Assembly (NCBI GenBank): GCA_017551665.1
Contig: JAFZLB010000094.1
Location: 1-61,822, forward strand
Direction of reading: 5' to 3'
Length of the DNA stretch: 61,822 nt
From: Lachnospiraceae bacterium
Lineage (GTDB): Bacteria; Bacillota; Clostridia; Lachnospirales; Lachnospiraceae
The position numbers were made by a program, and so were the translations under genes. Shown piece by piece: positions 7,779 to 22,826 of this stretch. Position 1 is the stretch's first letter. Each line of letters opens with the position of its first letter. The notes under the pieces are model-generated. The model saw only the letters and a program-made list of their open reading frames with translations. It had not been told where the DNA came from and searched no databases.

Positions 7779-9509
7779 TCAGACTTTTGTATCCCAGCGG
7801 CCGCACCAGACAAGCTCGTTGGCCTCTCCCTTAAACGCCGATTTGCCCGTAATCTTCTCCACGACGGCATGAATGTATTCGCGGGAGGGGGCGTATGCGT
7901 TGATATAGGTTTTCATCATCGGCAGGTCAAAGAGATGCGTCGTGTAATTGAGGGAGACGCAGAGCGTCGGCACCTCTTTGACATACCAGGGCATTTCGTT
8001 GCTGTGCGCCGTGGAATAACGCAGACGCACGACGTTTTCCTGGGCGTAGCCGACCATGTTGACAAATACCATGACAAGATCAAATTTCTTTTTGAATTCC
8101 TCCGCCGGTTCCGCGTGGAAGAATTTGATCGCGACGGAAGGATCATCCGGATGTTTGGCCGTGGCCTCGTAGAAATCATCCGGCGCGTCCACCGTAAAGC
8201 CGGCCTGTTCCAGTTCCTCGATGACGATGGCCTTGGATTTATCGGGATCACCGAAGGTCATGGCGTTGGGAGAGCGGAAGTAATACAGGCGCACGCGTTT
8301 CTTCTCCGCGGGATTGACCGGAAGCAACTGCTGCGTGTCCTTGACGAGTGTCACGCTTTCATCCGCGAGATGCGCGATGACCTTTTTGTGTTCTTCGCAG
8401 CCGATGACGGAAACACCGCTCTTCTCCGGCATGCTGAAATGATGCAGTCCCTGCTTTGCCTTGAGGCCGAGAATGCGGTGAAGCGCGTCCGAAAGCCGTT
8501 CCTCCGAAATGCGTCCGTCCTTCACTCCGTTCAGCATGTAGGTGAAATCTTCTATGGGTTCGCCGTTGAACATAAGGTACATGTCACAGCCTGCGGCGAT
8601 GGCACCCGGCACCTGCTCGGAACGCGGGGCGGCGCAGGTCATGCCGACCATGTGGGAAGCGTCCGTCAGAATCAGGCCGTTGAAGCCAAGCTGTTCCCGC
8701 AGCAGATCATTCAGGAGCTCCGGCGCGAGCGTGGCGGGCATGATGTCCTCATCCTTGATGCCGGGACGGAATTTGCGGGAATAGGCGGGCATGCAGATAT
8801 GTCCGATCATCATGGACTCAATCCCTTCGTCGATCAGCTCCTTGTACACGCGTCCGAAGGATGCGTCCCATTCCTCAATGCTTAAGTCATTACAGCCCAT
8901 GACGAGATGCTGGTCCCGTTCCTCGACGCCGTCGCCGGGGAAATGCTTGGTGCAGCAGGCGATGTCCGATTCCTTCATGCCGCGCATATAGGCCTTGCAG
9001 CAGGCAAGGATCTTATCCGGGTCATCCCCGAAGGCGCGGTTGTTTACAATGGTGTTGCGCCAGTTGAAGAGGATGTCAGAGATCGGCGCGAAGGTCCAGT
9101 TGCAGCCGACGCTCTTTGCCTCAATGCCGCCGATTCTGCCGAGTTCATAAGCGACCTCGTCCGTCCGGGCCGCGCCGGCCGCGGGCGGCGGTGCGATCAC
9201 CGTGCCGCTCTTGGCCATTTTCTCCGTGCCGCCTTCGACATTTGCCGCGACGAGCAGCGGGATTTTGGAGGATAGCTGGAAAGCATTGATCTTTTCCCAG
9301 GATTCCTCCGCCGTCGCGTTCTGCCAGCGTAAACCGCCGATGTGGTAGGTTTCGCAGATGCGCTTCGCCTCTTCGGGATCCTTCATGACGGAAAGATAAA
9401 TAAAGAGCTGTCCGACCTTTTCCTCCAGGGTCATGGAAGAAATCGTATCCTCCACCCAGGCAATCTGTTCGTCGTTCAGATAAAAGGGTTTTGCCTTTAA
9501 ATCAACCAT
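7779..9509 (-). CDS. Glycoside hydrolase family 3, NagZ-like catalytic domain
   Basis: GH3 enzymes remove terminal beta-linked sugars. The 576 residues show the NagZ-type motif KHFPGDG (188-194) followed by the Asp/His pair D199 and H201 that does general acid/base work in the N-acetylglucosaminidase branch. The nucleophile is the Asp of GLILTDAS (D283). A C-terminal alpha/beta domain follows (about 370-576). There is no signal peptide, so it acts on imported substrate. AGGAG lies 8 bases before the ATG. It follows the second permease by 23 bases, so the transporter probably brings in a short glycoside or glycan fragment that this enzyme opens. The branch motif suggests an N-acetylhexosamine or uronic-acid substrate, but specificity cannot be read from motifs. 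Confidence 0.88.
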   Translation of the reverse strand: MVDLKAKPFYLNDEQIAWVEDTISSMTLEEKVGQLFIYLSVMKDPEEAKRICETYHIGGLRWQNATAEESWEKINAFQLSSKIPLLVAANVEGGTEKMAKSGTVIAPPPAAGAARTDEVAYELGRIGGIEAKSVGCNWTFAPISDILFNWRNTIVNNRAFGDDPDKILACCKAYMRGMKESDIACCTKHFPGDGVEERDQHLVMGCNDLSIEEWDASFGRVYKELIDEGIESMMIGHICMPAYSRKFRPGIKDEDIMPATLAPELLNDLLREQLGFNGLILTDASHMVGMTCAAPRSEQVPGAIAAGCDMYLMFNGEPIEDFTYMLNGVKDGRISEERLSDALHRILGLKAKQGLHHFSMPEKSGVSVIGCEEHKKVIAHLADESVTLVKDTQQLLPVNPAEKKRVRLYYFRSPNAMTFGDPDKSKAIVIEELEQAGFTVDAPDDFYEATAKHPDDPSVAIKFFHAEPAEEFKKKFDLVMVFVNMVGYAQENVVRLRYSTAHSNEMPWYVKEVPTLCVSLNYTTHLFDLPMMKTYINAYAPSREYIHAVVEKITGKSAFKGEANELVWCGRWDTKV

Positions 9510-9532: not shown

Positions 9533-10555
9533 TCAGGCTGCTTCCGCAGTCTGCATTTTTGCGTGGGCGGCGGCAATCCGTTCTCTTTCCGCCTGACGCT
9601 TCTTCAGAACATGTTCATTCGCGAGGAAAATCAGGAAGCCGACAAACAAAACCATATTCACAACGGAAGCGTTTGCCTCGGACAGATTGAGCTGCACGAG
9701 GCCGTAGCGGATGATGTTGATCGCAATGGCCGCAACAATCGTGCCGACCGCCTGATTCGATTTTCTGCCGATGTATCCGCCCAGGATCATGGGGAACATG
9801 TTGCTGGTGACAGGACCGTTGCTCGCAAGTCCCAGGGATGCGGCAAGCTGCGTGTTGAAAGCGGTGTCCATGATGCCCGCGATACAAACCAGACCGCCGG
9901 CAAATGTATAGCAGAGAATGGTGTGACGGAAAATGTTAATGCCGCTGTTCTGGGAGATGAGCTGGGAGCCCTGGATGGCACGCAACTGATAACCGAAACG
10001 GGTCGAGTTCATCAGTACGGTTACAAAAGCACCGACCACAATCGTCAGGATAATGATGAAGGCCGTGTCGGAGAGAATGGCAACACCTTCCACACCGAAG
10101 AGATTCAAGCCTTTGCCTTTGGTGTACTGGTAAGGAAATACTTCCCAGATCAGTCCCATACCGATGCCGAGCACCATGGCGGGAACACGCATGGTAATGA
10201 ACATCAGACCGGTAAGGAAACCAAAGACGAGACCGAAGGCAAGCGAAAACAGCAGGATGAACACACCCGAAAGCCCGAGTTCGATCGCGAGCGCTCCACC
10301 GATGATACAACCGGCCAGACGCTGGGCACCGAGAGACAGATCCATACGTCCGCTGGTCAGGTTGAAGGAAAGGGCAAATGCCGTAATCGCGGCGACACCG
10401 GAATTGCGTACCAGCGTTTTGATGTCCAGAAGCGTACTGATCACATGCCGTCCCTGTGTCAGATAGACAAGCAGCTCCATCACGATCCACGCGGCGAGCG
10501 GGAAGGCGAGGGTGAAGATAATGGTTTTTGCGGGTGTCGCGCCTTTGTTTTTCAT
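9533..10555 (-). CDS. Sugar ABC transporter permease (RbsC/BPD_transp_2 family)
   Basis: An inner-membrane permease of 340 residues with about 8-10 hydrophobic segments, matching the ribose/galactose type (RbsC, MglC). Typical elements include NLTSGRMDLSLGAQ near residues 65-78 and RAIQGSQLISQNSGIN, the cytoplasmic loop that contacts the ATPase. It is one of two permeases in this operon and lies downstream of the binding-protein gene, while its partner (12073-13026) lies upstream. The gap to the binding-protein gene holds a 12-bp perfect hairpin. The two permeases probably form a heterodimer, since only one ATPase gene with two halves is present. Confidence 0.92.
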   Translation of the reverse strand: MKNKGATPAKTIIFTLAFPLAAWIVMELLVYLTQGRHVISTLLDIKTLVRNSGVAAITAFALSFNLTSGRMDLSLGAQRLAGCIIGGALAIELGLSGVFILLFSLAFGLVFGFLTGLMFITMRVPAMVLGIGMGLIWEVFPYQYTKGKGLNLFGVEGVAILSDTAFIIILTIVVGAFVTVLMNSTRFGYQLRAIQGSQLISQNSGINIFRHTILCYTFAGGLVCIAGIMDTAFNTQLAASLGLASNGPVTSNMFPMILGGYIGRKSNQAVGTIVAAIAINIIRYGLVQLNLSEANASVVNMVLFVGFLIFLANEHVLKKRQAERERIAAAHAKMQTAEAA

Positions 10556-10621: not shown

Positions 10622-11995
10622 TTACTGGATTTTATTGCTGATGATACTGTCGATGTCCGCAAGATCCGTCAGCAACTGGTCGATGTCATCTGCCGTGACA
10701 TCCGGATTGTTTGTGACCATGTAGGGTGCGAGGTCATCGCTGTTCAGTACGTAGGTCGCGTGGTTCATATCCAGTTTGCCGATGCCTTCATAGGTTGACG
10801 CATCCATGCAGGCCCAGGGATTGACGCCGAAGAGCTGTGCCTTGCCGCCGCGCTTAAAGCTGTCGGGCTTTCCGTTCAGCGCGTTGAAGATGGCGAGGGT
10901 GTTCATGGCGTTCGCGTTGTTCAGCGGGTTGATGACCGCAGCGTTCAATACGGTATCACCGGTGGAATCCGTGGAATTGAAGCCGGTTTCCGTCTGCTGT
11001 TCGATGGATGCCGTGCCGATGATGCGGATGTTGTTGCCGGTGCTCTTTTCGATTTCATCGATCGCGTTGGTAAACTGTGAATACCAGGCAACCGCTGCGA
11101 AGGTGTCATAGTTTCCGGTCTGCAGCTGTGTCTGCACGGCAGTGATGGCCGCCTGTGCGTCCATGCCGGGATAGATGTAGATGTGAACGTCATCGTTGCC
11201 TGTGTTTACTTCGCCGGGATCCTGACGGTTGATGATGTCATCGATGGACATGTCATAGGTCAGACCGTACGCGTCCTGATAGGCCTGCAGAATGCCTTCC
11301 ACGGCATACGCGTGGGAAGCGGCACCCTGGCCGATCTTGCCGCCGACCGCAGCGCAGGAGAAAATGATGACGCCGTGGGGCTCTCCGTCCGAAAGCAGAT
11401 CTTCAAAGGCTTTGGAGTAGGCATCTCCGATGCCGGGAGCGGAAGCGCCGCAGTGACCGAGATTGTACTGCAGATCCTCGATATCCGCGTTGAGGGCGGA
11501 GTTCTGGGTGACAAACCACATGCCCCATTCCTCCGCTTTGCGCGCACCCTGGGAGGAAGCGTCGGAAGCGGTCACGAAGTTGATGATGCCTTCGCAGCCT
11601 GCCGCGTATGCCTGATCCATGAAGTCAACCAGACCGTTGGCGTCCGAAAGCGTCTCGGAGAACATAAATTCCATGTTGAAGAGCGGTGCAAGCTCTTCCT
11701 CAAAATACTGTCTCTGGATCTCCCATGTTTCGCCGGAGTGAATCGTGGCCACGCCGATCTTGACCGGATCACCGTCGAGCGTAGAGGGCGCAGCATCCGC
11801 GGGCGCTTCTGTCGTTGTCTCGGCAGGTGCTTCCGCAGCGGTGCTGGCTTCCTGTGCGGCCTGCGATGCCTCAGCACCTCCCGTACTTGCCGCGCCGCCG
11901 GAATCACCGGAGGAACAGGCACCAAGCGCGACGACCGTCAGGGACGAAATCATCAGCATTGCCGCAAATCGTTTCAAAATTGCCAACTTTTTCAT
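10622..11995 (-). CDS. Sugar-type ABC transporter substrate-binding lipoprotein
   Basis: A lipid-anchored solute-binding protein of 457 residues. The N-terminus has Lys residues, a hydrophobic stretch and the lipobox LGAC with Cys27, followed by a Ser/Gly/Ala/Glu-rich linker to about residue 75. The mature part starts DPVKIGVATIHSGETWEIQRQYFEEE, the pattern of periplasmic-binding-protein family 1/4 sugar receptors. It should capture the substrate at the outer face of the membrane and hand it to the two permeases. Hairpins lie on both sides of the gene, suggesting extra expression relative to the rest of the operon. The ligand is unknown; neighbours with uronate enzymes and GH3 suggest a uronic-acid-containing glycoside. 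Confidence 0.93.
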   Translation of the reverse strand: MKKLAILKRFAAMLMISSLTVVALGACSSGDSGGAASTGGAEASQAAQEASTAAEAPAETTTEAPADAAPSTLDGDPVKIGVATIHSGETWEIQRQYFEEELAPLFNMEFMFSETLSDANGLVDFMDQAYAAGCEGIINFVTASDASSQGARKAEEWGMWFVTQNSALNADIEDLQYNLGHCGASAPGIGDAYSKAFEDLLSDGEPHGVIIFSCAAVGGKIGQGAASHAYAVEGILQAYQDAYGLTYDMSIDDIINRQDPGEVNTGNDDVHIYIYPGMDAQAAITAVQTQLQTGNYDTFAAVAWYSQFTNAIDEIEKSTGNNIRIIGTASIEQQTETGFNSTDSTGDTVLNAAVINPLNNANAMNTLAIFNALNGKPDSFKRGGKAQLFGVNPWACMDASTYEGIGKLDMNHATYVLNSDDLAPYMVTNNPDVTADDIDQLLTDLADIDSIISNKIQ

Positions 11996-12035
11996 TTTGT
12001 TCTTCCCCTTTCTGAGAATGAATGTAAGGTATATG

Positions 12036-12063
12036 TCATCCGCCGAAGCCGGCGGGCATGACC
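12036..12063 (-). other. Hairpin upstream of binding-protein gene
   Basis: GTCAT plus CCGCCG (12036-12046) pairs with CGGCGG (12051-12056) and ATGAC (12059-12063), with a 4-nt loop and a 2-nt bulge. It lies just after the stop of the upstream permease gene on the minus strand and before the lipoprotein gene. With the hairpin at 10572-10600 it brackets that gene, which would suit RNase processing and a stable monocistronic fragment. Confidence 0.55.
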
Positions 12064-12072: not shown

Positions 12073-13026
12073 TTATCCTTCCGGTGCAGGCAGACCTTTC
12101 GGACGCTGCTGCGCCGTCATGATCAACAGCAGAAACAATGCGCCGCGCACCGCCTGGATGATGGTGGAATCGACACCGATCATCTGCAGGCCCGTGTTCA
12201 GCACGCAGACCGTGATTGCACCGACAATACCGGAGTAAACAAAGGATTTGGAACCGCCAAACACGGACATGCCCCCAAGCACGATGGCCAGCATGCAGTC
12301 CATGTTGAGAGACGGCAGTGTTTTTGTTCCGACGGAGCCGGAGCGGACAAGGAAGACCAGGGCACCGCAGCCGCAGCCGATGCCGGCAATGATGAAAGCG
12401 ATCAGAAGAAAGATGCTTTTCCGTATGCCGGTCTGCTCCGCATTGACATCGTTGGTGCCGAGCATTTTCAGGGAGCGTCCGATGTTGCTGAAGTGGAAGA
12501 GTACCACACAGGCCAGAAAGAAAAATGCGAAAACGTAATAAGCGAAGTAATTTTTCGTCAGCGAATCCACCAGTGCGTACGGAAGCGATACCGTGGTGCC
12601 GCCGAGAATGGACTGCTGGATGGCGGACAGCAGGGTCATCATGACGATGGTGACAAAGAGCACACGCACCTGAAAGAGCGTGGAGAGCACGGCGCTGACC
12701 GCCATAAGCCCCATGCCGAGCAGAATGGCAACGATGATCATCACGAGGAGCGATTCGGTCGCGTTATAGGCCATGCCCGCAAGCGTCGCGGTGAGGACCG
12801 TAGTCGCCCCCATGGCGAGATTGACATTGCCGGTGGCAAAGATGAAGCAGGCACCCGTGGCCACGACACCGACCGGCAATGCGGCGTCCAGGATCACCTT
12901 AAAGGTGGCCTTAGAGGCAAAGCGCTCTGTTGCCAGCGAGAAAAACAGGATGAGAATCAAAAGGAAAACAATCGGCAGAATCTGGATAAACATGCGGTTT
13001 TCAAGCAGTTTTCTGATTTTTTGCAT
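12073..13026 (-). CDS. Sugar ABC transporter permease (second, RbsC-like)
   Basis: A 317-residue integral membrane protein with about 8-9 hydrophobic segments and the family pattern TGACFIFATGNVNLAMGATTVLTA near the second to third segments. The loop near GRSLKMLGTNDVNAEQTGI matches the ATPase-contacting region of RbsC/MglC proteins. It starts 10 bases after the ATPase gene stop and uses ATG with GGAG upstream. It is diverged from the permease at 9533-10555, so the pair looks like an old heterodimer, not a recent duplication. It should carry the ligand of the lipoprotein at 10622-11995. Confidence 0.9.
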   Translation of the reverse strand: MQKIRKLLENRMFIQILPIVFLLILILFFSLATERFASKATFKVILDAALPVGVVATGACFIFATGNVNLAMGATTVLTATLAGMAYNATESLLVMIIVAILLGMGLMAVSAVLSTLFQVRVLFVTIVMMTLLSAIQQSILGGTTVSLPYALVDSLTKNYFAYYVFAFFFLACVVLFHFSNIGRSLKMLGTNDVNAEQTGIRKSIFLLIAFIIAGIGCGCGALVFLVRSGSVGTKTLPSLNMDCMLAIVLGGMSVFGGSKSFVYSGIVGAITVCVLNTGLQMIGVDSTIIQAVRGALFLLLIMTAQQRPKGLPAPEG

Positions 13027-13036: not shown

Positions 13037-14536
13037 TCAGATCATATAGTCGATCAGGTCGTGTTCGCTTAAGTTCTCCGAACGCATTTTTTCCGCACGG
13101 ATCTCTCCGTCCTTTAAGATCAGAATCCGGTCACACATGCCGATCAGTTCCTGTAACTCCTCTGAAATCAGCAGGATGGATTTTCCGGCCTTTTTCATGT
13201 CATACATCAGCTGGTACATGGCGGCTTTGACGCCCACGTCAATGCCGCGGGTCGGGCAGTCAAGAATCAGAATCTGTGAATCCGACGCCATCCATTTTCC
13301 GAAGACGACCTTCTGCTTGTTGCCGCCGGAAAGGGTGTTGACCTTATAGTGTTTTCCGGCGCATTTGATGGAAAGATCCTCGATCTGCTTGTCCACATAG
13401 CGCCTCTCCTTAAAGAAGGAAATCAGGTTGCCAAAGGAGGCGTTGATTTTGTAGCCTGTGGAAGCGATGTTTTCGTAGATGGTGGCGGAAAGACCGAGGG
13501 ATTCCGTGTCACGGTTTTTGGACACGTAACCGATCCCGTTTTCGATGGCGGTCTTCGGTGATCTGATCACCTTCCCGTTTGCCGTTATGACTTTGCCGTC
13601 CAACACCTTGTCCACGCCGAAGAGCGCACGTCCGAGGGTGTGCATACCGCAGTGGGACAGACCGCCGACACCGAGAATCTCTCCGCGGTGAAGCTCCATG
13701 GAAAAGCACATCAGATCATGGAGTGTCGTAATGTTTTCCGCACGCAGCACGACTTCTTCCTCACAGGGATCAAAGTCGGAGCGGTAATAGTCTCCTTTTA
13801 ATTCTCTGCCGACCATCATCTTGCGGATGACATTCGGCTCATATTCCGATTTGTCGAGCGTGCCGATGATGACACCGTCCCTGAGCACCGTGAGCTTGTC
13901 GCAGTGTTCCATCATCTCATCCAGATCATGGGAGATGAACATGACGCATTTGTTCTCCTCCTGCATCCGGTGCATTACACGATATAAAAACTGCCGTCCC
14001 TCGAGAGAGAGGGCGGTGGATGTTTCGTCGATGATGAGAAGATCAGGCTCCCAGTACATGCACTTTGCGATTTCGATGATCTTTCTGGCCTGCATATCCA
14101 GTTCGGACGTGCGCTGTCTGGCGGTGAATTCGGTGATTTCCAGGCGGTCCAGCAATGCCTGCGCCTCGGCCATCATGGCAGAGCGATTGATGACGGGCCC
14201 CTTTTTAAACTTTTTTTCGTGTCCGAGAAAGATGTTTTCCGCGACGGTGATGTTGGCAATCGAACCCGCTTCCTGCACAACCATGCCAATGCCGGCCTGC
14301 TGTGCCTGGAGCATGGTCTTCGGCGCCCAGTCCGCGCCCTTGAAGCGCATGGTGCCCTTTGTCGGCGGCTGCATCCCTGCAACAATGGAAGAAACAGTGG
14401 ATTTGCCGCTTCCGTTCTCACCAATAAGACCGTAAATATGTCCTCTGGAAAGCGAAAAAGAAACATCGTTGAGCGCAACGGTGACACCGAAGTGTTTGTC
14501 CATGTGCTCGATTTCGAGAATCAGATCTTCCGCCAT
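13037..14536 (-). CDS. Sugar ABC transporter ATPase, two NBDs (RbsA/MglA family)
   Basis: The 499 residues contain two ATP-binding halves. The first half has an intact Walker A (GENGSGKST, about 39-47), but the family LSxGQ signature is replaced by SELDMQARK, and Walker B reads LLIIDETSTAL. The second half has no working Walker A (GLSHCGMHT in its place) but a good signature LSGGNKQKV and Walker B ILILDCPTRG. One composite ATP site (Walker A of half 1 with signature of half 2) is therefore intact and the other is degenerate on both faces. It is the first gene of the minus-strand operon. GGGGTAAGG lies just before the ATG. Confidence 0.93.
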   Translation of the reverse strand: MAEDLILEIEHMDKHFGVTVALNDVSFSLSRGHIYGLIGENGSGKSTVSSIVAGMQPPTKGTMRFKGADWAPKTMLQAQQAGIGMVVQEAGSIANITVAENIFLGHEKKFKKGPVINRSAMMAEAQALLDRLEITEFTARQRTSELDMQARKIIEIAKCMYWEPDLLIIDETSTALSLEGRQFLYRVMHRMQEENKCVMFISHDLDEMMEHCDKLTVLRDGVIIGTLDKSEYEPNVIRKMMVGRELKGDYYRSDFDPCEEEVVLRAENITTLHDLMCFSMELHRGEILGVGGLSHCGMHTLGRALFGVDKVLDGKVITANGKVIRSPKTAIENGIGYVSKNRDTESLGLSATIYENIASTGYKINASFGNLISFFKERRYVDKQIEDLSIKCAGKHYKVNTLSGGNKQKVVFGKWMASDSQILILDCPTRGIDVGVKAAMYQLMYDMKKAGKSILLISEELQELIGMCDRILILKDGEIRAEKMRSENLSEHDLIDYMI

Positions 14537-14573
14537 AGCCTTACCCCAAAAAGAATATTGAACCCCTGCATCT

Positions 14574-14602
14574 ATCGTAACAGATCAAACGTCCCCCGTC
14601 TA
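14574..14602 (-). promoter_or_regulatory. Candidate promoter of the ABC/GH3 operon
   Basis: On the minus strand a -10-like TACGAT occupies 14574-14579. The matching -35 position (14597-14602) has no good consensus and is overlapped by a TATTGCAAA repeat. A weak -35 covered by an activator site is the arrangement expected of an AraC-activated promoter. The leader would be about 30 nt. Confidence 0.35.
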
Positions 14603-14631
14603 TTGCAAACTATCCAAACATATATTGCAAA
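14601..14631. promoter_or_regulatory. Two TATTGCAAA direct repeats, 22 bp apart (AraC-type operator?)
   Basis: TATTGCAAA occurs at 14601-14609 and again at 14623-14631. The start-to-start distance of 22 bp is two helical turns, as in AraC-family half-sites. They lie in the divergent region between the ABC operon and the AraC gene, and the inner copy touches the expected -35 of the ABC operon. Confidence 0.5.
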
Positions 14632-14648
14632 TCGTCTATTATTACTAA

Positions 14649-14666
14649 TTTGAAATGTATTTCAAA
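14649..14666. promoter_or_regulatory. 8-bp inverted repeat just upstream of the araC-type promoter
   Basis: TTTGAAAT (14649-14656) and ATTTCAAA (14659-14666) form a perfect dyad with a 2-bp centre, ending 5 bp before the -35 box of the regulator gene. The symmetry suits a dimeric repressor or activator other than the AraC protein, whose sites are usually direct repeats. Confidence 0.4.
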
Positions 14667-14671
14667 ATAGA

Positions 14672-14700
14672 TTGCATTTTGTTTTGCGTTTTCCTATAAT
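14672..14700 (+). promoter_or_regulatory. Strong promoter giving a leaderless AraC-family mRNA
   Basis: TTGCAT (14672-14677), 17-bp spacer, TATAAT (14695-14700). Exactly six bases separate the -10 box from the ATG at 14707, so the expected start point is the A of the ATG. Confidence 0.65.
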
Positions 14701-14706
14701 GCAGAC

Positions 14707-15507
14707 ATGGCATTCGATCTGCGCAGAGGAAATTTCACATTTAAACACAGCCGTTCCTTTGAGGAACCGGATAACGAGACCGGCAGCTTCCGGGAGCATT
14801 TTCATTCCCTGTACGAGCTGCTGTATTTCATCGGCGGCGAGGCGGATTACAAGATCCGCCATACGCGGTACCGGCTGCGGCCGCATACGCTGCTGGTGGT
14901 GAAGCCCGGAGAGCTGCATCATGTGCTGATCAAGAGCGCGGAGGTGCCTTACGAACGCTTTGTGGTGCGCTTTGACGAGGCGGATCTGCCGGGGGGATTA
15001 CGGACACTGATCCGCCGTCTGGACAATGTCTACAGTATAGAAAACACCCGTCTGTCCGAGGAACTGTTCCGTCTGGACGCCTTTCCGGACACGCTGCCGG
15101 ACGAGGACGCCGTGTTTTACGCCATGCGCTGGCAGCTGCATATTATTCTGACCTATCTCAGTGCCGCAAGGGGCTTACGGCGCAAGGCGGACGCGGTGAA
15201 CGAGGAAGTCCACCGCATCACGGATTACATTGAACAGAACCTGACGGGAATTCATACGATCGATGATCTGAGCGCGGGTCTGCACATGTCCCGCTCCGGC
15301 CTGCAGAAGGTCTTTTCCACCGGCTTCGACATGCCGGTCATGCGCTATGTGCGCACGCAGAAGGTGACGCTTGCGCATGCCATGCTCAATGACGGCTACG
15401 CACCGACGGAGATTCCGGCGCGCTGCGGCTTCAATGATTATTCTTCGTTTTATCGCGCGTATACAAAACTGTATAACATGCCTCCTTCCGGGACGAACCG
15501 GCGCTGA
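14707..15507 (+). CDS. AraC-family transcriptional regulator
   Basis: The 266 residues have an N-terminal cupin-like sensing domain (about 15-110, with HFHSLYELLYFIGG and a second beta segment PHTLLVVKPGELHHV) and two C-terminal helix-turn-helix units (about 165-262, IDDLSAGLHMSRSGLQKVF and IPARCGFNDYSSFYRAYTKLYNMPPS). Such proteins sense a small sugar or sugar acid and activate nearby catabolic genes. It is divergent from the ABC/GH3 operon and heads the uronate cluster, so it probably controls both. It has no Shine-Dalgarno; the promoter places the transcript start at the ATG. The gap to uxaC is 26 bases, so they may be co-transcribed. Confidence 0.9.
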   Translation: MAFDLRRGNFTFKHSRSFEEPDNETGSFREHFHSLYELLYFIGGEADYKIRHTRYRLRPHTLLVVKPGELHHVLIKSAEVPYERFVVRFDEADLPGGLRTLIRRLDNVYSIENTRLSEELFRLDAFPDTLPDEDAVFYAMRWQLHIILTYLSAARGLRRKADAVNEEVHRITDYIEQNLTGIHTIDDLSAGLHMSRSGLQKVFSTGFDMPVMRYVRTQKVTLAHAMLNDGYAPTEIPARCGFNDYSSFYRAYTKLYNMPPSGTNRR

Positions 15508-15533
15508 GAGGGATGAGAGGAAGGTGAGAAGGG

Positions 15534-16937
15534 ATGAAAGCATTTATGGACGCGGATTTTCTGCTGAAGACGCAGACGGCAAAGATGCTGTATCACGAAA
15601 CGGCAGCAGCCCTTCCGGTCATCGATTTTCATAACCATCTGAACCCGGAAGAGATCGCGGAGGATGTGCGCTATGAAAACATGACGCAGGTCTGGCTGTC
15701 CGGTGATCACTACAAGTGGCGGGCCATGCGTGCCCACGGCGTGCCGGAGCGTCTTGTCACCGGGGACGGCGGGGATTACGAAAAGTTTGAAGCCTACGCG
15801 GACACGATTGGCCACGCGATCGGCAATCCTTTGTATCACTGGACGCATCTGGAACTGCAGCGCTACTTTGACGTAACGACGCCGCTGAAAAAAGAGACGG
15901 CGAAGGAGATCTGGGAGCACTGCAACGAAAGACTGCAGGCGGCGGATTGTTCCGTGCGGGGGCTTTTGAAACAGCAGCGCGTGGAGGTACTCTGCACGAC
16001 GGATGATCCGGCGGATGATCTGCGGCATCATCTGGCGCTGAAGGAAGAGGGCTTTGAGATTTTAACCCTGCCGTCCTTCCGTCCGGAAAAGGCACTCGGC
16101 ATTGAAAAAGAGGACTTTGCGGAATACCTCACGCGGCTTTCGGAGGTGAGCGGTTGTACGATCAACACAGCTGCCGATCTGCTGAAGGCACTGTCGCAGC
16201 GTCTGGCCTTCTTTACGGAAGCCGGCTGCAGGGTCACGGATCACAGCATCGAGGGACGCTTCTTTGTGCCGGCGACGGAGAAGGAAGTGGATGACATCCT
16301 CGCGAAACGGCTTGCGGGCGGGACGCCGACGGAGGAAGAATGCGGCAAATATCGCGGCTATATGCTCAGCGAACTCGGAAAGGAATACGCGAGGAAGGGG
16401 TTGGTGATGCAGCTGCACATCGGTGCGCTGCGCAACAATTCCGCGCGCATGTTCCGTTTTCTCGGGCCGGATACGGGCTTTGACAGCATGAACGACTTTG
16501 CCTACGCGCCGCAGCTTTCCGCCCTCTTGAACGCCATGGACGAGGAAAATCTCTTACCGCGGACGATACTCTACGGTCTCAACGGCAATGATTATGATAT
16601 GCTCACGGCGATGGCCGGGAACTTCCAGAGCAACGGGGAAGGCATCCGCGGCAAGGTGCAGGTCGGGACGGCCTGGTGGTTTATGGACCAGATCGACGGC
16701 ATGCGCAGGCAGATGCGTTCGCTCATGAGCATCGGCCTGTTCAGCACCTTCATCGGGATGCTGACGGATTCGCGCTCCTTCCTGTCCTTCCCGCGGCATG
16801 AGTATTTCCGCAGGATTCTCTGCGATCTTGTCGGGGACCTTGTGGAGGAAGGCGCGTATCCGAATGACGAAGAGAGCCTGAAGGAGCTGGTCAGAGGGAT
16901 TTGTTACGGAAACGCAAAGGCTTATTTTTCGCTGTAA
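15534..16937 (+). CDS. uxaC: Glucuronate/galacturonate isomerase UxaC
   Basis: UxaC converts D-glucuronate to D-fructuronate and D-galacturonate to D-tagaturonate in the cytoplasm. The 467 residues match the family length and begin with the metal-binding motif VIDFHNHL (H33, H35), followed by the conserved ENMTQVWLSGDHYKWRAMRAHGV. AAGGTGAGAAGGG precedes the ATG. It is the entry enzyme of the plus-strand cluster, which next encodes a PfkB kinase, 6-phosphogluconate dehydrogenase, a mannonate-type SDR and a LarA-family enzyme. No mannonate dehydratase gene is in the window. Confidence 0.96.
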   Translation: MKAFMDADFLLKTQTAKMLYHETAAALPVIDFHNHLNPEEIAEDVRYENMTQVWLSGDHYKWRAMRAHGVPERLVTGDGGDYEKFEAYADTIGHAIGNPLYHWTHLELQRYFDVTTPLKKETAKEIWEHCNERLQAADCSVRGLLKQQRVEVLCTTDDPADDLRHHLALKEEGFEILTLPSFRPEKALGIEKEDFAEYLTRLSEVSGCTINTAADLLKALSQRLAFFTEAGCRVTDHSIEGRFFVPATEKEVDDILAKRLAGGTPTEEECGKYRGYMLSELGKEYARKGLVMQLHIGALRNNSARMFRFLGPDTGFDSMNDFAYAPQLSALLNAMDEENLLPRTILYGLNGNDYDMLTAMAGNFQSNGEGIRGKVQVGTAWWFMDQIDGMRRQMRSLMSIGLFSTFIGMLTDSRSFLSFPRHEYFRRILCDLVGDLVEEGAYPNDEESLKELVRGICYGNAKAYFSL

Positions 16938-16975
16938 GCCGGCGCGGTTTTATGGAAGAAACGGAGGAAGAAGGA

Positions 16976-18049
16976 GTGAAGATCAGGGAAACGTACCGCT
17001 ACGCGATTGCCTGTCCCACAAGCATGGGGCTGCGCATCACTCCGCAAAACCGCATGGCGGTGCAAAACAGCAATCTGTTTTATCTGCAGGCGACGAGCGC
17101 GGAGTCCAATGTCTTGAACATCGCGTCTTCGCTGGGCAGGGAATGTCTCGTGCTGACGCGCTTTGTCAAGGACTCGCCGATGGCCGCCTTCATCCGGGCG
17201 CAGCTGCGCGCCCGCAACATCCGCTATGAGGGAAAGGAAGTGGAGCAGGGCGGCCCCTGGGGCTACCGCCATCAGTTCAACATCGCGGATTCCGGCTTCG
17301 GCCTGCGCGCGCCCCGCGTCTGGAATGACCGCGCGGGAGAAGTGGGCAGGACGCTGTCCGCCGAAGACTTCGATACGGAGCGGATCTTCGGCGAAGAGGG
17401 TGTCGCGATTCTTCACCTCTCCGGTCTCATCGCCGCCATGAGCAAAGAAACGACGGAATGCTGTTTAGCGCTCGCGAAGTGCGCGAAGGCGAACGGCAGT
17501 CTGGTTTCCTTCGACTTGAACCACCGCACGACCTTCTGGAAGGGACGGGAAGAAGAGCTGAAAACGGCATTCCACGAGATCGCGTCCGTCGCGGACATTT
17601 TGATCGGCAACGAGGAGGACTTCCAGCTCTGCCTCGGATTCCGGGGACCGGAGGCCGGCGGCAAGGATCTTTCCGCCAAGATCGAAAGCTTCAAGGCCAT
17701 GATCGGGCAGGTCCGCGAAGCATATCCGGGGGCGTCCCTCTACGCGACGACGCTGCGGCAGGTGCTGAGCGCGAACGAGCATCTCTGGGGTGCGCTCGTG
17801 CTCTCCGGTGAGGACTGCTTTGTGGAGGAGCCGCGCCCCATTGAGGTCATGGACCGCATCGGCGGCGGCGACGGCTTTTCCGGCGGGCTGTTATACGGCG
17901 TGCTGAACGGCTGGGAGCCGGAGCGCTGCCTGCAATTCGGCTGGGCCTCCGGTGTGCTGGCCGCGAGCAGTCTGAATGATTACGCGGAGCCGGCGGACGA
18001 GAAGCAGATCTGGGATGTATACGCGGGGAATGCGAGAGTACAAAGATAG
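16976..18049 (+). CDS. PfkB-family sugar (acid) kinase; KDG-kinase-like
   Basis: A ribokinase/PfkB-fold kinase of 357 residues. The catalytic signature DRIGGGDGFSGGLLYG places the base at D299, and FDLNHRTTFW (about 179-188) and LIGNEEDF (about 209-216) are typical of 2-keto-3-deoxygluconate kinases. The start is GTG at 16976 with GGAGG 8 bases upstream. An ATG at 16952 and one at 16901 in the same frame lack a Shine-Dalgarno, and the latter would overlap uxaC. Family assignment would make it KdgK, but the next gene is gnd and no KDPG aldolase or mannonate dehydratase is nearby. A gluconate kinase role is therefore a serious alternative. Confidence 0.85.
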   Translation: MKIRETYRYAIACPTSMGLRITPQNRMAVQNSNLFYLQATSAESNVLNIASSLGRECLVLTRFVKDSPMAAFIRAQLRARNIRYEGKEVEQGGPWGYRHQFNIADSGFGLRAPRVWNDRAGEVGRTLSAEDFDTERIFGEEGVAILHLSGLIAAMSKETTECCLALAKCAKANGSLVSFDLNHRTTFWKGREEELKTAFHEIASVADILIGNEEDFQLCLGFRGPEAGGKDLSAKIESFKAMIGQVREAYPGASLYATTLRQVLSANEHLWGALVLSGEDCFVEEPRPIEVMDRIGGGDGFSGGLLYGVLNGWEPERCLQFGWASGVLAASSLNDYAEPADEKQIWDVYAGNARVQR

Positions 18050-18058
18050 GAGGAAATC

Positions 18059-19510
18059 ATGAGTAACTGTGATATTGGATTAATCGGACTGGCGGTGATG
18101 GGGGAGAACCTTGTGATGAACATGGAGTCCAAGGGCTTTTCCGTGGCGGTGTATAACCGGACAACATCGAAGGTGGATGATTTCGTGAACGGCCGGGGCG
18201 CCGGGAAGCAGATTACGGGCTGTCATTCGCTGGAGGAGCTGGTGGCGGCATTGAAGAAGCCGCGCAAGATTTTTATGATGGTGAAGGCGGGAGAAGCGGT
18301 GGACAACATGATCGAACAGCTGCTGCCGCTGACGGAGGAAGGCGATGTCATCATCGACGGCGGCAACTCCCATTTCCCGGACACGATCCGGCGCACGCAG
18401 TATGTGGAATCGAAGGGACGTCTCTATATCGGCACCGGCGTTTCCGGCGGCGAGGAAGGCGCGCTGAACGGCCCTTCCATGATGCCCGGCGGCAGTCCCG
18501 ATGCCTGGCCGCATGTGAAGGATATCTTCCAGGCGATCTGCGCGAAGGTGGAGGACGGCAGTCCCTGCTGTGACTGGGTGGGCGAAAACGGCGCGGGCCA
18601 TTTCGTGAAGATGGTGCACAACGGCATCGAGTACGGCGACATGCAGCTGATCTGCGAAGCCTACCAGATCATGCGCGATCTGCTGGGGATGAGTGATGAA
18701 GAGATGCACGATGTGTTTGCGGAATGGAACAAATCGGAGCTGGACAGCTATTTGATCGAAATCACGCGGGACATCCTGGCCTACAAGGACGAGGACGGTT
18801 CTCCGATCGTGGAGAAAATATTGGACACCGCCGGACAGAAGGGCACGGGCAAGTGGACCGGCATCGCCGCGCTGGACGAGGGCGTGCCGCTCACCCTGAT
18901 CGGCGAAGCCGTGTTCGCACGCTGTCTCTCCGCAATGAAGGAAGAGCGCGTCGAGGCCTCCAGGACCTTTCAAAAGACGGCTCCGTCCTTTGACGGCGAC
19001 AAAAAAGCATTTGTCGAAAGCATCCGCAAGGCGCTCTTTGCATCTAAAATTATTTCCTATGCCCAGGGCTATACGCTGATGCGTGCCGCCGCCAGGACCT
19101 ACGGCTGGAACTTAAACTACGGCGGCATTGCGTTGATGTGGCGCGGCGGCTGCATCATCCGCAGCGTCTTCCTCGGCAAGATCAAGGAAGCGTACGATAA
19201 CAATCTTCAGCTGACGAACCTGCTCCTTGACCCGTACTTCAAAGAAACCATCGAGGGACTCGTCCCGGCCTGGCGCGAGGTCGCAAGCGCGGCACTCCTG
19301 CACGGCGTGCCCGCCCCCGCCATGACCAGCGCGCTGTCCTACTTCGACGGCTACACTTCCGAACGCCTGCCGGCAAACCTCCTGCAGGCACAGCGCGACT
19401 ACTTCGGCGCCCACACCTACGAGCGCATCGACAAACCCCGCGGCGAATTTTTCCACACCAATTGGACGGGCCACGGCGGCTCAACCGCGGCGGGTGTATA
19501 TAACGTGTGA
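18059..19510 (+). CDS. gnd: 6-phosphogluconate dehydrogenase (decarboxylating)
   Basis: Gnd oxidises 6-phosphogluconate to ribulose-5-phosphate and CO2. The 483 residues contain the Rossmann start IGLIGLAVMGENL, the Arg/Thr loop after the second strand (YNRTTSKVDDF) expected for NADP use, and the substrate-site block GAGHFVKMVHNGIEYGDMQLI. The C-terminal helical domain and tail (HTNWTGHGG) are complete. A strong AGGAGG lies 7 bases before the ATG. Its presence inside a uronate cluster between a PfkB kinase and a mannonate-type SDR is unusual and is the main clue for the alternative pathway proposed in the findings. A 138-nt hairpin element follows the stop. Confidence 0.96.
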   Translation: MSNCDIGLIGLAVMGENLVMNMESKGFSVAVYNRTTSKVDDFVNGRGAGKQITGCHSLEELVAALKKPRKIFMMVKAGEAVDNMIEQLLPLTEEGDVIIDGGNSHFPDTIRRTQYVESKGRLYIGTGVSGGEEGALNGPSMMPGGSPDAWPHVKDIFQAICAKVEDGSPCCDWVGENGAGHFVKMVHNGIEYGDMQLICEAYQIMRDLLGMSDEEMHDVFAEWNKSELDSYLIEITRDILAYKDEDGSPIVEKILDTAGQKGTGKWTGIAALDEGVPLTLIGEAVFARCLSAMKEERVEASRTFQKTAPSFDGDKKAFVESIRKALFASKIISYAQGYTLMRAAARTYGWNLNYGGIALMWRGGCIIRSVFLGKIKEAYDNNLQLTNLLLDPYFKETIEGLVPAWREVASAALLHGVPAPAMTSALSYFDGYTSERLPANLLQAQRDYFGAHTYERIDKPRGEFFHTNWTGHGGSTAAGVYNV

Positions 19511-19516
19511 ATTCGA

Positions 19517-19654
19517 GCCCCGCGGGCTTATTCCGTTCGGTCGAGCGACCGTAGTTCGACGTCGTTACTTACGAGCGTCCCTCAGCGAGTTAGTAACGTT
19601 ACGTCGAACTCCGAGCGGGAGCGTGTCCGAGACCGAAGGAACAACCCGCGGGGC
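19517..19654. repeat. 138-nt imperfect long hairpin between gnd and the SDR gene
   Basis: The ends pair perfectly over 10 bp (19517-19526 with 19645-19654, GCCCCGCGGG). Further stems follow inward: TTCC and TTCGGTC (19531-19542, one bulge) with 19631-19641, AGTTCGACGT (19553-19562) with 19601-19610, and GTTACT (19564-19569) with 19592-19597. A small palindrome (19539-19550) sits in the left arm. No T-run follows, so it is not an intrinsic terminator. It may be a mobile palindromic intergenic repeat or an RNA-processing/stability element. Confidence 0.75.
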
Positions 19655-19664
19655 GTAGCCAATA

Positions 19665-19683
19665 CCTTAATACATTAAGGAGG
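19665..19683 (+). promoter_or_regulatory. Hairpin overlapping the SDR Shine-Dalgarno
   Basis: CCTTAAT (19665-19671) pairs with ATTAAGG (19674-19680) with a 2-nt centre. The Shine-Dalgarno AAGGAGG occupies 19677-19683, so its first four bases lie in the stem. The 2-nt centre is too tight for an RNA loop, so the closing pair would open, but a 6-bp stem remains possible. Confidence 0.4.
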
Positions 19684-19690
19684 ACACAAC

Positions 19691-20539
19691 ATGACACTAC
19701 CCATCAACACAGACCTGAACGATCGCGTCGCCGTCGTCACCGGTGCGGGCGGCGTGCTCTGCGGCATGTTCGCGAAGGCGCTGGCGAAATGCGGCGCAAA
19801 GGTCGCGCTGCTCGATCTGAACGAAGAAGCCGCGGAGAGCATCGCGGAAGAGATTCGGGCGGAAGGCGGAAACGCGAAGGCCTACAAATGCAACGTGCTC
19901 GAAAAGGAGTCCATGGATGCCTGCCATGAAAAGGTGCTGCAGGACCTCGGCCCCTGCGACATGCTGATCAACGGCGCGGGCGGAAACAATCCGAGAGCGA
20001 CAACGGATAAGGAGTATTACGAAGCGGGAGATTTGGAGGCAGAGCTGAAGAGCTTTTTTGACCTGGAGCAGAGCGGCGTGGAGTTTGTGTTTAACCTGAA
20101 CTTCATCGGGACGCTGCTGCCGACACAGACCTTCGCGAAGGATATGCTGGGAAGGAAGGGCTGTAACATTCTGAATATCTCGTCGATGAACGCCTATACG
20201 CCGCTGACGAAGATCCCGGCCTATTCCGGCGCCAAGGCCGCCATCTCCAATTTCACGCAGTGGCTGGCCGTGCATTTTTCGAAGGAAGGCATCCGCGTCA
20301 ACGCCATCGCGCCGGGCTTTTTCGCGACGGCGCAGAATAAGGCGCTGCTGTTCAACGAGGACGGTACACCGACGGCCAGGACGGGCAAGATCCTCGCCGC
20401 GACGCCCATGGGACGCTTCGGCGAAGCGGAGGAGCTCATCGGTGCGCTGCTCTTTCTGCTGAACAACGAGGCGGCGTCCTTTATCACAGGCGTGGTGCTG
20501 CCGGTGGACGGCGGCTTCTCGGCGTATTCCGGCGTGTGA
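19691..20539 (+). CDS. SDR oxidoreductase, D-mannonate/fructuronate reductase type
   Basis: A 282-residue short-chain dehydrogenase with the NAD(P) motif TGAGGVLCG (17-25), NGAGG (95-99) and catalytic Ser165/166, Tyr179 and Lys183 (YSGAK). The insert around ATTDKEYYEAGDLEAELKSFFDLE resembles SDR-type D-mannonate oxidoreductases found in uronate operons of Firmicutes. It should reduce D-fructuronate to D-mannonate, the step after UxaC. A strong AAGGAGG precedes the ATG. The gene is followed by a LarA-family gene 24 bases later. Other SDR substrates are possible, but the uronate context makes this the best assignment. Confidence 0.85.
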   Translation: MTLPINTDLNDRVAVVTGAGGVLCGMFAKALAKCGAKVALLDLNEEAAESIAEEIRAEGGNAKAYKCNVLEKESMDACHEKVLQDLGPCDMLINGAGGNNPRATTDKEYYEAGDLEAELKSFFDLEQSGVEFVFNLNFIGTLLPTQTFAKDMLGRKGCNILNISSMNAYTPLTKIPAYSGAKAAISNFTQWLAVHFSKEGIRVNAIAPGFFATAQNKALLFNEDGTPTARTGKILAATPMGRFGEAEELIGALLFLLNNEAASFITGVVLPVDGGFSAYSGV

Positions 20540-20563
20540 GCCTGAGGAAAGAGGAGAGCGGAT

Positions 20564-21865
20564 ATGACAGATTTGTACCGTGTGGCGGAAGCGGAAACAG
20601 GACTGACGGAGGAAGAGATCCGTGAGGCTCTGGCGCAGTCCCTTAAGGGACGAAGCCCGAAGCAGGTCCTGATCCTGCCGCCGGACTTTACGCGTTTTCA
20701 CTCAAACGCGGGCTTCATCACGAGAGTGTACTATCAGCTGCTGACGGAGATGGGCGCGGAGGTGGACATCATGCCCACCCTCGGCACCCATGACCCGATG
20801 ACGCCGGAGCAGATCAAAGCGATGTTCGGCGACATCCCGCAGGAGCGTTTTCTCGTGCATGACTGGCGCAACGACGTGGTGAAGATCGGCGAGGCACCGG
20901 CGGAATTCTTGGAGGAAATCACGGAAGGCCTCTGGCATGCGCCCATTGATTTCGAGGTGAACCGGCACATCATGGACGGGCGCTATGACCTCAGTATTTC
21001 GCCCGGACAGGTGGTGCCGCATGAAGTGATCGGCATGGCGAATCACGCAAAGAACCTCTTTGTCGGGGCGGGAGGCAGTGCCGTCATCAACCGCTCGCAC
21101 ATGGTGGGTGCCGTTTATGGCATGGAGCGCATGATGGGAAAAGACCATACCCCCGTGCGCAAGCTCTTTGATTACGGCCTGACGCATTTTCTGCAAGAGA
21201 GACCGATATTGTTTGTGCTGACGGTCACGACGGCACCGGGCGGGCAGATTCGCACGCACGGCCTTTTCATCGGGGAGGGGCGGGACTGTCTGACAGAGGC
21301 GGTAAAGCTCGCGCAGAAAAAGAACATCGATTTCGTGGAGCATGGCATCCAAAAGTGTGTCGTCTATCTGGACCCGGACGAATTCCATTCCACCTGGCTC
21401 GGCAACAAGGCGATTTACCGTACCCGCATGGCCATGGCCGACGGCGGCGAGCTGCTCATCCTCGCGCCGGGCGTGGAAAAATTCGGCGAAGACAAAGAGG
21501 TGGACCGGCTCATCCGCAAATACGGTTACCGCGGCAGACTGACGGTCCTCGAGGAATTCGAGAAAGAAGAGAACACCGATCTGCGCGAGAACATGGGCGC
21601 GGCTGCGCATCTGATCCACGGCTCTTCCGACGGCAGGTTTCATATCACCTACGCGGTGAAGAACATCACAAGGGAGGAGATCGAGGGGGTCGGCTTCGGG
21701 AGCGCGTCCTATGACGAAATGAGCAAACGCTTTGATCCGGAACGGCTGCAATACGGCTACAACATCGTGGACGGCGAGGAAATCTACTTCATTCCGAACC
21801 CTGCACTGGGGCTTTGGATCAACCGGGAGACCTTTTTGGACAAGGAGAAGGAAGAAGTGATATGA
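20564..21865 (+). CDS. LarA-family nickel-pincer hydroxyacid racemase/epimerase
   Basis: LarA enzymes use a nickel-pincer nucleotide to move hydride on the C2 hydroxyl of 2-hydroxyacids. The 433 residues keep the key positions in register with L. plantarum LarA: D41xxR44 (PPDFTR), H76 (GTHDPMT), H153, K163 (10 residues later, the cofactor-linking Lys) and H179 (16 residues later, the nickel-ligand His). GAGGAGAG precedes the ATG. It is the last gene of the uronate cluster. Lactate is an unlikely substrate here; the likely one is D-mannonate, giving D-gluconate by C2 epimerisation. LarA homologs with D-gluconate 2-epimerase activity have been described. The cofactor genes larB, larC and larE are not in the window. 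Confidence 0.88.
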   Translation: MTDLYRVAEAETGLTEEEIREALAQSLKGRSPKQVLILPPDFTRFHSNAGFITRVYYQLLTEMGAEVDIMPTLGTHDPMTPEQIKAMFGDIPQERFLVHDWRNDVVKIGEAPAEFLEEITEGLWHAPIDFEVNRHIMDGRYDLSISPGQVVPHEVIGMANHAKNLFVGAGGSAVINRSHMVGAVYGMERMMGKDHTPVRKLFDYGLTHFLQERPILFVLTVTTAPGGQIRTHGLFIGEGRDCLTEAVKLAQKKNIDFVEHGIQKCVVYLDPDEFHSTWLGNKAIYRTRMAMADGGELLILAPGVEKFGEDKEVDRLIRKYGYRGRLTVLEEFEKEENTDLRENMGAAAHLIHGSSDGRFHITYAVKNITREEIEGVGFGSASYDEMSKRFDPERLQYGYNIVDGEEIYFIPNPALGLWINRETFLDKEKEEVI

Positions 21866-21935
21866 TAGTACGGTCCGGTGCGTTGGGGGACGTTTCCGGA
21901 CGAAACGAAGGTTATTGCGAAAGAAGGGGTAAAAC

Positions 21936-22826
21936 ATGATTTACAGTATGACAGGATTCGGCCGGGGTGAGGTGACGGACAAGGGATACCGCATCACGGT
22001 GGAGATCAAGACCGTCAACAACCGCTACCTGGATATGAACATCCGGCTGCCGCGCGCGCTGCAATCCTTTGACCCGGCGCTGCGCTCGCTGATCAAACAG
22101 CATATTTCCAGGGGCAAGACCGAGGTCTATATCGGTCTGGAGACGGATGAGGCAAAGAGCGCGCAGGTGAAGTGCAACCTGCCGATCGCGGCGGAATATG
22201 CCGCGGCCATGCGACGGATGGCAAAGGAGCTGGAGCTGCAGGACGATATCGCGGTCTCACAGATCGCGAGGATGCCGGAGGTCTTCAAGATCGAGGACAA
22301 CTCGCCGGATGAGGATACGATTGAGCGTCTGCTGACGGAGGCCTGTACCGAAGCGCTCCGGAAGCTGAAGGAAGCGCGCGCGAAAGAGGGCGCTTACCTC
22401 GCGGAGGATCTGCAGGGGAAGCTTGCGCTCATCCGCGAACACGCCGCCTTCATCGAAAAGAAGGTGCCGGAGATCAACGAGGCCTACCGGCAGAAACTGA
22501 AGGAACGCATTGCGTCCATCGTGCAGGATCATGCGGTGGATGAGGGCAGGCTGTTGACGGAGGCCGCGATCTTTGCGGACAAGTCCAGTGTCGATGAGGA
22601 GCTGGTGCGCCTGAATTCCCATATCGACGCCTTTCTGGAAACGATGGAACAGGCGAAGGACGAAAAGGACGGCATCGGCAGAAAGCTGGATTTTCTGATC
22701 CAGGAGATGAACCGGGAAGCGAATACGACGCTTTCCAAATCCCCGGACATGGAGCTTTCGGCGCATGCCGTGGAGATCAAAACCGAGATTGAAAAGATCC
22801 GGGAACAGATCCAGAATATCGAGTAA
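21936..22826 (+). CDS. YicC/YloC family endoribonuclease
   Basis: YicC-family proteins are hexameric endoribonucleases acting in mRNA and small-RNA turnover. The 296 residues start with the family hallmark MIYSMTGFGRGE and continue with EIKTVNNRYLDMNIRLPR. The C-terminal DUF1732 part contains DKSSVDEELVRLNSHIDAFLE and ends with REANTTLSKS. AGAAGGGG lies before the ATG. It leads into gmk and rpoZ as in many Firmicutes. The small remA (DUF370) gene often found between yicC and gmk is absent; only 11 bases separate the two genes. Confidence 0.93.
   Translation: MIYSMTGFGRGEVTDKGYRITVEIKTVNNRYLDMNIRLPRALQSFDPALRSLIKQHISRGKTEVYIGLETDEAKSAQVKCNLPIAAEYAAAMRRMAKELELQDDIAVSQIARMPEVFKIEDNSPDEDTIERLLTEACTEALRKLKEARAKEGAYLAEDLQGKLALIREHAAFIEKKVPEINEAYRQKLKERIASIVQDHAVDEGRLLTEAAIFADKSSVDEELVRLNSHIDAFLETMEQAKDEKDGIGRKLDFLIQEMNREANTTLSKSPDMELSAHAVEIKTEIEKIREQIQNIE

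Follow-up and report, generated by a model that had tools for sequence, protein, structure and literature searches.

A uronate gene cluster of a Lachnospiraceae bacterium and its probable route from glucuronate through gluconate to the pentose phosphate reactions

The DNA analysed here, called the window, is a stretch of 61,822 nucleotides from Lachnospiraceae bacterium (assembly GCA_017551665.1, contig JAFZLB010000094.1, positions 1 to 61,822, forward strand). Between positions 14707 and 21865 it carries six open genes, all on the + strand, which encode an AraC-family regulator, the isomerase UxaC, a PfkB-family kinase, the 6-phosphogluconate dehydrogenase Gnd, a short-chain dehydrogenase/reductase (SDR) and a homologue of LarA. 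Judged from sequence, the cluster is probably an operon for hexuronate catabolism in which the Entner-Doudoroff-type branch is bypassed by way of mannonate, gluconate and 6-phosphogluconate. The preliminary description of this DNA had read the genes as a path from glucuronate through gluconate to the pentose phosphate route, and that reading is supported: in the bacterium's own genome neither the mannonate dehydratase UxuA nor an aldolase for 2-keto-3-deoxy-6-phosphogluconate (KDPG) was found, and the same gene set recurs in relatives. Further support comes from the lack of a match to glucose-6-phosphate dehydrogenase (G6PDH, Zwf), the single Gnd, the presence of LarB, LarC and LarE, the fold of the LarA homologue, which is nearest to GntE2, and a related locus (L059) with a separate kinase of the 2-keto-3-deoxygluconate (KDG) type. 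The identities of the genes, their conserved linkage, the genome absences, the cofactor genes and the match to GntE2 in fold and residues are established; from them we infer every substrate, the order of epimerase before kinase, transcription as an operon, and transport.

In the proposed route, UxaC would isomerise D-glucuronate to D-fructuronate, which the SDR would reduce to D-mannonate. The LarA homologue, equipped with the nickel-pincer nucleotide (NPN) made by LarB, LarE and LarC, would then invert C2 and yield D-gluconate. Phosphorylation of gluconate at O6 by the PfkB kinase would give 6-phosphogluconate, and its decarboxylation by Gnd would give ribulose 5-phosphate, to be used in the pentose phosphate reactions.

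The presence of UxaC, a PfkB kinase, Gnd, a mannonate-type SDR and a LarA-family enzyme, as claimed earlier, was confirmed by family calls with Pfam and NCBIfam. UxaC (15534..16937, +), expected to convert D-glucuronate to D-fructuronate, matched PF02614 with 663.5 bits and the glucuronate isomerase model NF002794 with 614.2 bits (cut-off 387). The PfkB-family sugar-acid kinase, a proposed gluconokinase (about 16976..18049, +), matched PF00294 with 69.9 bits (cut-off 25.8); its start is placed at GTG 16976, which is preceded by GGAGGA, with ATG 16952 or TTG 16901 as alternatives. Gnd (18059..19510, +) is the decarboxylating type that turns 6-phosphogluconate into ribulose 5-phosphate and CO2 (TIGR00873, 760.4 bits, cut-off 426.7). 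The SDR (19691..20539, +) belongs to the D-mannonate oxidoreductase type, that is, a fructuronate reductase predicted to form D-mannonate; it scored 447.5 bits on NF006132 (cut-off 281), 266 bits above the next model, with gluconate 5-dehydrogenase models at 153.6 bits or less. The LarA homologue (20564..21865, +), a member of LarAH group 18, matched NF052594, named 'nickel-dependent putative hexonate epimerase', with 620.5 bits (cut-off 500). Positions 15534-21865 therefore hold the combination that defines a Thermotoga-type route, a hexuronate locus uniting a reductase, a LarA epimerase homologue, a sugar-acid kinase and Gnd. The AraC-family protein (14707..15507, +; PF12833 58.5 bits, PF02311 43.6 bits) is the probable regulator of the cluster, and an 81% identical protein stands at the equivalent position in the nearest relative, locus L001.

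The absence of a mannonate dehydratase and a KDPG aldolase, claimed earlier for the cluster, holds genome-wide in the own assembly (2.57 Mb in 118 contigs, 91.4% complete). There were no matches to UxuA (PF03786) or KDPG aldolase (PF01081), while among 14 control genomes the same searches detected UxuA in 5 and the aldolase in 8, so that the two enzymes that mark an Entner-Doudoroff-type glucuronate pathway were not found and a KDPG exit is not visible. Similarly, the C-terminal domain of G6PDH (PF02781, G6PD_C) gave no match in the own genome and was positive in 9 of the 14 controls. An oxidative pentose phosphate pathway, with G6PDH feeding Gnd, is thus not seen and, as far as can be told, glucose 6-phosphate is not turned into 6-phosphogluconate by the usual route of entry; Gnd would then serve the proposed route only. 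Gnd and UxaC each have a single match in the genome, both within the cluster. It was also found that contig C79 of the same genome encodes LarC1 (197.2 bits, cut-off 90), LarC2 (135.5, cut-off 50), LarB (287.7, cut-off 175) and LarE (242, cut-off 150), with the LarB, LarC and LarE genes within 4 kb of each other, and hence the bacterium can make the LarA cofactor. Beside larBCE lie genes for an ATP-binding cassette (ABC) importer of the metal-chelate type (Peripla_BP_2, FecCD permease and ATPase; L098 8397-11638), which is a candidate for nickel supply.

Few genomes of the host family contain Gnd. Among 120 genomes, one per genus and the window's included, it was found in eight, at nine places. 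Six of the eight places outside the window were read (L092 to L097; the other two lie in G046 and G085): Zwf, recognised by its model, adjoins Gnd at L093, L094, L096 and L097, PfkB stands beside Gnd at L092, and L095 shows neither in view. The Zwf-linked Gnds are 46-56% identical to that of the window, whereas the Gnds of the clusters are 73-88% identical, and the four Zwf-linked proteins split from the other 61 of 65 with a support of 0.96. We considered Gnd as a stray housekeeping gene and rejected this, given its presence in 8 of 120 family genomes, the lack of a Zwf match and the separate branch of the Zwf-linked family Gnds.

The LarA homologue is proposed to act as an NPN-dependent D-mannonate/D-gluconate 2-epimerase. 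The NPN-binding residues R44, K163 and H179, which were paired by hand on the alignment with R41, K164 and H180 of GntE2, and the catalytic D41, H99, H153 and K282 are invariant in all 84 aligned proteins, including that of the window. In the loop behind the second catalytic histidine, E154 is present in 84/84 and V155 in 83/84, which fits the 'EV/S' signature of groups 18-20. W278, whose placement in alpha-11 follows from the residue list, stands four residues before K282 in 84/84. Among solved LarA types, GntE2 has the closest fold. The alignment of LarA homologues (A2) holds 41 of those available and that of the PfkB proteins (A1) 31. In PMC7583248 and PMC11770544, GntE1, GntE2 and LarAH15 are assayed NPN-dependent D-gluconate 2-epimerases; the window protein resembles them in NPN-binding and catalytic residues, the EV/S loop and fold, as judged by comparison with GntE2 only. 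For GntE2 on mannonate the first of these papers gives 197 and 17, which we take as kcat per s and Michaelis constant (KM) in mM. For group 18 itself, a hexonate is a hypothesised substrate.

PF00294 is the only Pfam match of the kinase at E<=0.001. It scored below the cut-off of all 15 NCBIfam models that it matched (best NF041633, 159.8 of 700), and on KDG kinase models it reached 86.9 of 440 (NF041332), 31.4 of 400 (NF052444) and 55.2 of 400 (NF040938). To our knowledge, gluconokinases belong to the FGGY or P-loop families, neither of which the protein matches; with PfkB as the only family match, it may act as a gluconokinase outside the known families. Gluconokinase is the simplest reading of its sequence and partner genes. 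Locus L059 is instructive, as it contains a run of UxuA, a UxuB-like reductase, a KDG-type kinase and KDPG aldolase followed by PfkB, Gnd, a HAD protein and LarA, so that two kinases and two branches stand side by side. The PfkB of L059 is 78% identical to that of the window, the KDG-type kinase 29%. On an aldolase-kinase fusion model (cut-off 700) the KDG-type kinase scored 475.7 bits, the window PfkB 159.8 and the L059 PfkB 167.7; on a KDG kinase model the KDG-type kinase was under the cut-off as well (200.9 of 440). The window PfkB has its fold and general motifs in common with the KDG kinase TM0067 (2afb) but differs in the motif GGPWGYRHQF...NDRAGEV: H99, R111 and N117 are present in 53/53 aligned PfkB-type members, and M, L and Y occupy these positions in the L059 kinase of the KDG type. 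The partners differ too, Gnd for the window PfkB and KDPG aldolase for the KDG kinase. The PfkB protein was rejected as a KDG kinase, on account of the separate KDG-type kinase in L059 and the lack of a KDPG aldolase match in the own genome.

In L092, the PfkB-Gnd pair is 58% and 73% identical to that of the window, and the stretch contains neither UxaC nor LarAH18; the product of the kinase is then most simply Gnd's own substrate. This stretch (897-12045) also contains parts of a sugar ABC transporter, four zinc dehydrogenases and a LarA homologue on the lactate/malate racemase side, with 275.5 bits on the malate racemase model (cut-off 500). Perhaps L092 encodes a further pathway by which a hexonate or polyol reaches 6-phosphogluconate.

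Relatives of the LarA homologue were found at 156 places in the genome collection, and the best 80 were fetched with their flanks as loci, mostly from assemblies of gut and rumen Clostridia. Their genes were identified by tblastn and a codon-score caller. Gnd was present in 68 of these 80 loci, PfkB in 56, the SDR in 34 and UxaC in 24. When the count was restricted to the 46 loci whose flanks extend 4 kb or more upstream and 1.5 kb or more downstream, Gnd was found in 43 and PfkB together with Gnd in 41; the pair is missing from L043, L044, L046, L069 and L080. In 48 of the 51 loci showing both genes whole, PfkB immediately precedes Gnd, the exceptions being L066 and L073 with reversed order and L074 with a gap of 876 bases. 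The genes for entry differ between loci: of the 80, 6 have a UxuB-like reductase, 7 UxaE and 4 UxuA, as identified from one or more representatives. Such variation at the entry around a constant core is the pattern expected of a shared lower pathway. It is clear that the neighbourhood is real and conserved and not due to chance. About half of the loci (39/80 or 42/80 in two counts) have in addition a Cof-type HAD phosphatase, mostly in the interval from gnd to the LarA homologue or SDR (for example L002 8168-9004 and L053 7263-8087); the window cluster has no such gene. The phosphatase might serve to dispose of a phosphate ester that is metabolised no further, 6-phosphomannonate for example.

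We also queried 54 genomes with LarAH18, namely G000, G026, G037 and G095 together with those to which 50 of the 80 loci belong; these 50 had been chosen for Gnd (all 50) and mostly PfkB in view, and the other 30 loci are outside the count. Gnd was present in 51 of the 54, with one match each, largely as selected for by construction, and UxaC likewise in 51. Zwf (PF02781) was found in none of the 54, neither in the own genome nor in the 53 others. UxuA was present in 10, the PF01081 aldolase in 30, and neither in 23. The gene set thus recurs in related genomes lacking uxuA, a check put forward in the preliminary description, with 44 of the 54 having no UxuA match. A simple rule that LarAH18 means no UxuA was dropped, given the 10 genomes with UxuA. 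In the family sample UxuA was found in 56 of 120 genomes; the two sets differ in make-up, completeness is not given for 50 of the 54, and no statistics are claimed for the comparison.

Several observations weigh against the proposed route. With the own genome at 91.4% completeness, a gene could hide in a gap. By sequence (2afb, 100.3 bits) and by fold (Foldseek, 1.3e-25) the PfkB kinase is nearest to KDG kinases. The parts of PMC7583248 and PMC11770544 available to us name no assayed member of LarAH group 18, and the first gives high KM values for mannonate with the assayed GntE1 (120) and GntE2 (17), taken as mM. Neither Gnd nor PfkB is in view at L044, L069 and L080, and UxuA lies within the same stretch in 4 of the 80 loci. 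Among the 54 genomes, 21 without a UxuA match carry a PF01081 aldolase; LarC was found in 33 and not in 21, and LarB over its cut-off was not found in 27, which are the same 21 and six more, although the LarA homologues of the 21 carry all cofactor residues; the link to the cofactor genes is thus not seen in every carrier. These gaps are scattered over the LarA tree with some clustering; missing contigs would explain them if the genes cluster as in the own genome, and cofactor from elsewhere is possible too. Diverged LarAH18 homologues stand in other contexts in L087, L088 and L089. The operon of L087 (6752-13847) comprises a PF01081 aldolase, an FGGY kinase (below cut-offs), a D-2-hydroxyacid dehydrogenase, LarAH18, an SDR and a lactonase-like protein, with a divergent IclR regulator beside it, and its genome has no match to Gnd or UxaC; in L088 the homologue lies behind UxuA and a UxuB-like gene.

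Of the alternatives, the one that survives best reverses the last steps: PfkB would phosphorylate D-mannonate, and the LarA homologue would be a 6-phosphomannonate 2-epimerase that supplies 6-phosphogluconate to Gnd. Such an order was demonstrated in cell extracts of Lactobacillus suebicus, where the genes of the two steps are not identified in PMC6978723, and gene content cannot separate this order from the proposed one. The HAD phosphatase, present in roughly half of the loci, would be in keeping with an excess of a phosphate ester, and the residue before the catalytic lysine is N281 in group 18 and G286 in GntE2. On the other side, free mannonate was the substrate in assays of GntE1, GntE2 and LarAH15 (PMC7583248, PMC11770544), and the PfkB-Gnd pair of L092, which stands without LarAH18, suggests that 6-phosphogluconate is made directly, although L092 has another LarA homologue. 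We consider this alternative unlikely and favour a kinase that acts on gluconate, after the epimerase, over one that acts on mannonate before it.

It is decidedly improbable that the LarA homologue acts on some other hexonate or aldarate from uronate breakdown, with PfkB and Gnd handling gluconate from outside or from 5-ketogluconate. Such a substrate is suggested by the authors of PMC7583248 for GntE1 (group 19) in view of its very high KM for mannonate, and LarA homologues are found beside 2-hydroxyacid or zinc dehydrogenases in L087 and L092; the SDR also matches the gluconate 5-dehydrogenase models. Its far higher score on the mannonate oxidoreductase model and the UxaC present in 51 of the 54 genomes speak for mannonate, however, and by established chemistry mannonate alone, among the products of UxaC and a reductase, yields the precursor of Gnd by inversion at C2.

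An ordinary Entner-Doudoroff-type pathway, with PfkB as KDG kinase, a dehydratase other than UxuA and an aldolase outside PF01081 elsewhere in the genome, and Gnd and LarA as bystanders, would agree with the closeness of PfkB to KDG kinases and with negatives that cover PF03786 and PF01081 but neither enolase-type dehydratases nor other aldolase families, yet we regard it as the least probable account, as UxuA and KDPG aldolase were not found, the kinase beside them in L059 is a different protein, PfkB stands directly before Gnd in 48 of the 51 loci with both genes whole, and PfkB is far under the cut-offs of the KDG kinase models, though the L059 kinase does not reach them either.

Returning to the cluster, the gap of 180 nt between gnd and the SDR gene (19511-19690) folds into a single long hairpin (-85.4 kcal/mol and z -6.1 for 19505-19690), while the gap in L001 is only 16 nt. 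No further copy of the hairpin was seen in the window or the fetched loci, and it has no Rfam match; it is perhaps an inserted palindromic element. An Rfam scan of 14000-22500 gave no match, and promoter and terminator scans gave results close to the shuffled expectation.

Divergently transcribed from the uronate cluster are the genes of an ABC transporter and a glycoside hydrolase, all on the - strand. The ATP-binding protein (13037..14536), of the RbsA/XylG kind and with PF00005 in two stretches, would be part of a candidate uptake system for a sugar substrate; the gene adjoins the cluster in L001 also, with 78% identity. Two permeases would belong to the same transporter (12073..13026, PF02653 63.2 bits, and 9533..10555, PF02653 53.7 bits). 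Between them lies the gene of a putative lipoprotein (10622..11995), whose start looks lipoprotein-like by eye and whose position suggests the role of binding protein; neither Pfam nor NCBIfam gave a match for it at E<=0.001. The glycoside hydrolase of family 3 (7779..9509) matched PF00933, the N-terminal domain, with 204.3 bits, and there was no match to a second domain. Its motif KHFPGDG is one that we take to be NagZ-like. A 54% identical homologue is found in the Gnd-SDR-LarA-UxaC cluster of L046, and the enzyme, a candidate releaser of uronate, may release glucuronate from a disaccharide.

For many gut and rumen bacteria, uronates derived from pectin, xylan and host glycans are a source of food, and breakdown through KDG and KDPG is usually assumed. 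Annotation by the usual pathway might call the 23 of 54 module genomes without UxuA and PF01081 aldolase non-users of glucuronate, and flux models would overlook a pathway in which one carbon leaves as CO2 and pentose phosphate is formed directly. Two enzyme families are offered for testing, LarA group 18 and the PfkB kinase, which would be a new kind of gluconokinase; L059, with both branches adjacent, is a natural control locus. If instead the kinase acted first, the cluster would provide gene candidates for both unassigned steps of the Lactobacillus suebicus type, and LarAH18 would be the first NPN-dependent 6-phosphomannonate 2-epimerase, so that NPN enzymes would act on phosphorylated sugar acids. 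No title or abstract describing this cluster or a PfkB gluconokinase was found in a literature search that had most subscription journals outside its reach.

According to PMC6978723, PMC7583248 and PMC3750489, Rodionova et al. 2012 proposed for Thermotoga a flow from mannonate through gluconate to 6-phosphogluconate. The UxaR locus of Thermotoga maritima (gnd, uxaE, uxaD, gntE, gntK) resembles the window in uniting a LarA-family 2-epimerase, a gluconate kinase, Gnd and a reductase in one hexuronate locus with an equivalent proposed flow into the pentose phosphate route. T. maritima has a kdgA-kdgK-uxuB-uxuA operon too (PMC3750489), whereas the own genome is without UxuA and KDPG aldolase matches. 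The same searches matched both UxuA and G6PDH in the Thermotoga control genome, in contrast to the own genome, where G6PDH had no match. The epimerases belong to different groups (20 in T. maritima, 18 in the window) and are 24% identical over the aligned fold. The gluconate kinase of T. maritima is presumably of the FGGY kind, while that of the window is a PfkB protein. What differs here is the LarA group, the kinase family, and an own genome in which no Zwf and no KDPG exit were found. The galacturonate route of Lactobacillus suebicus (PMC6978723) likewise joins uronate isomerase steps to 6-phosphogluconate and Gnd, and a cofactor balance between reductase and Gnd is claimed for it; it employs a mannonate kinase and then a 6-phosphomannonate 2-epimerase, the reverse of the order proposed for the window, and the genome also has genes of the lower isomerase pathway, with phosphoketolase downstream. 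The window contains a well-supported cluster that, with substrates that we infer, is probably a variant of a published but little-tested kind of route.

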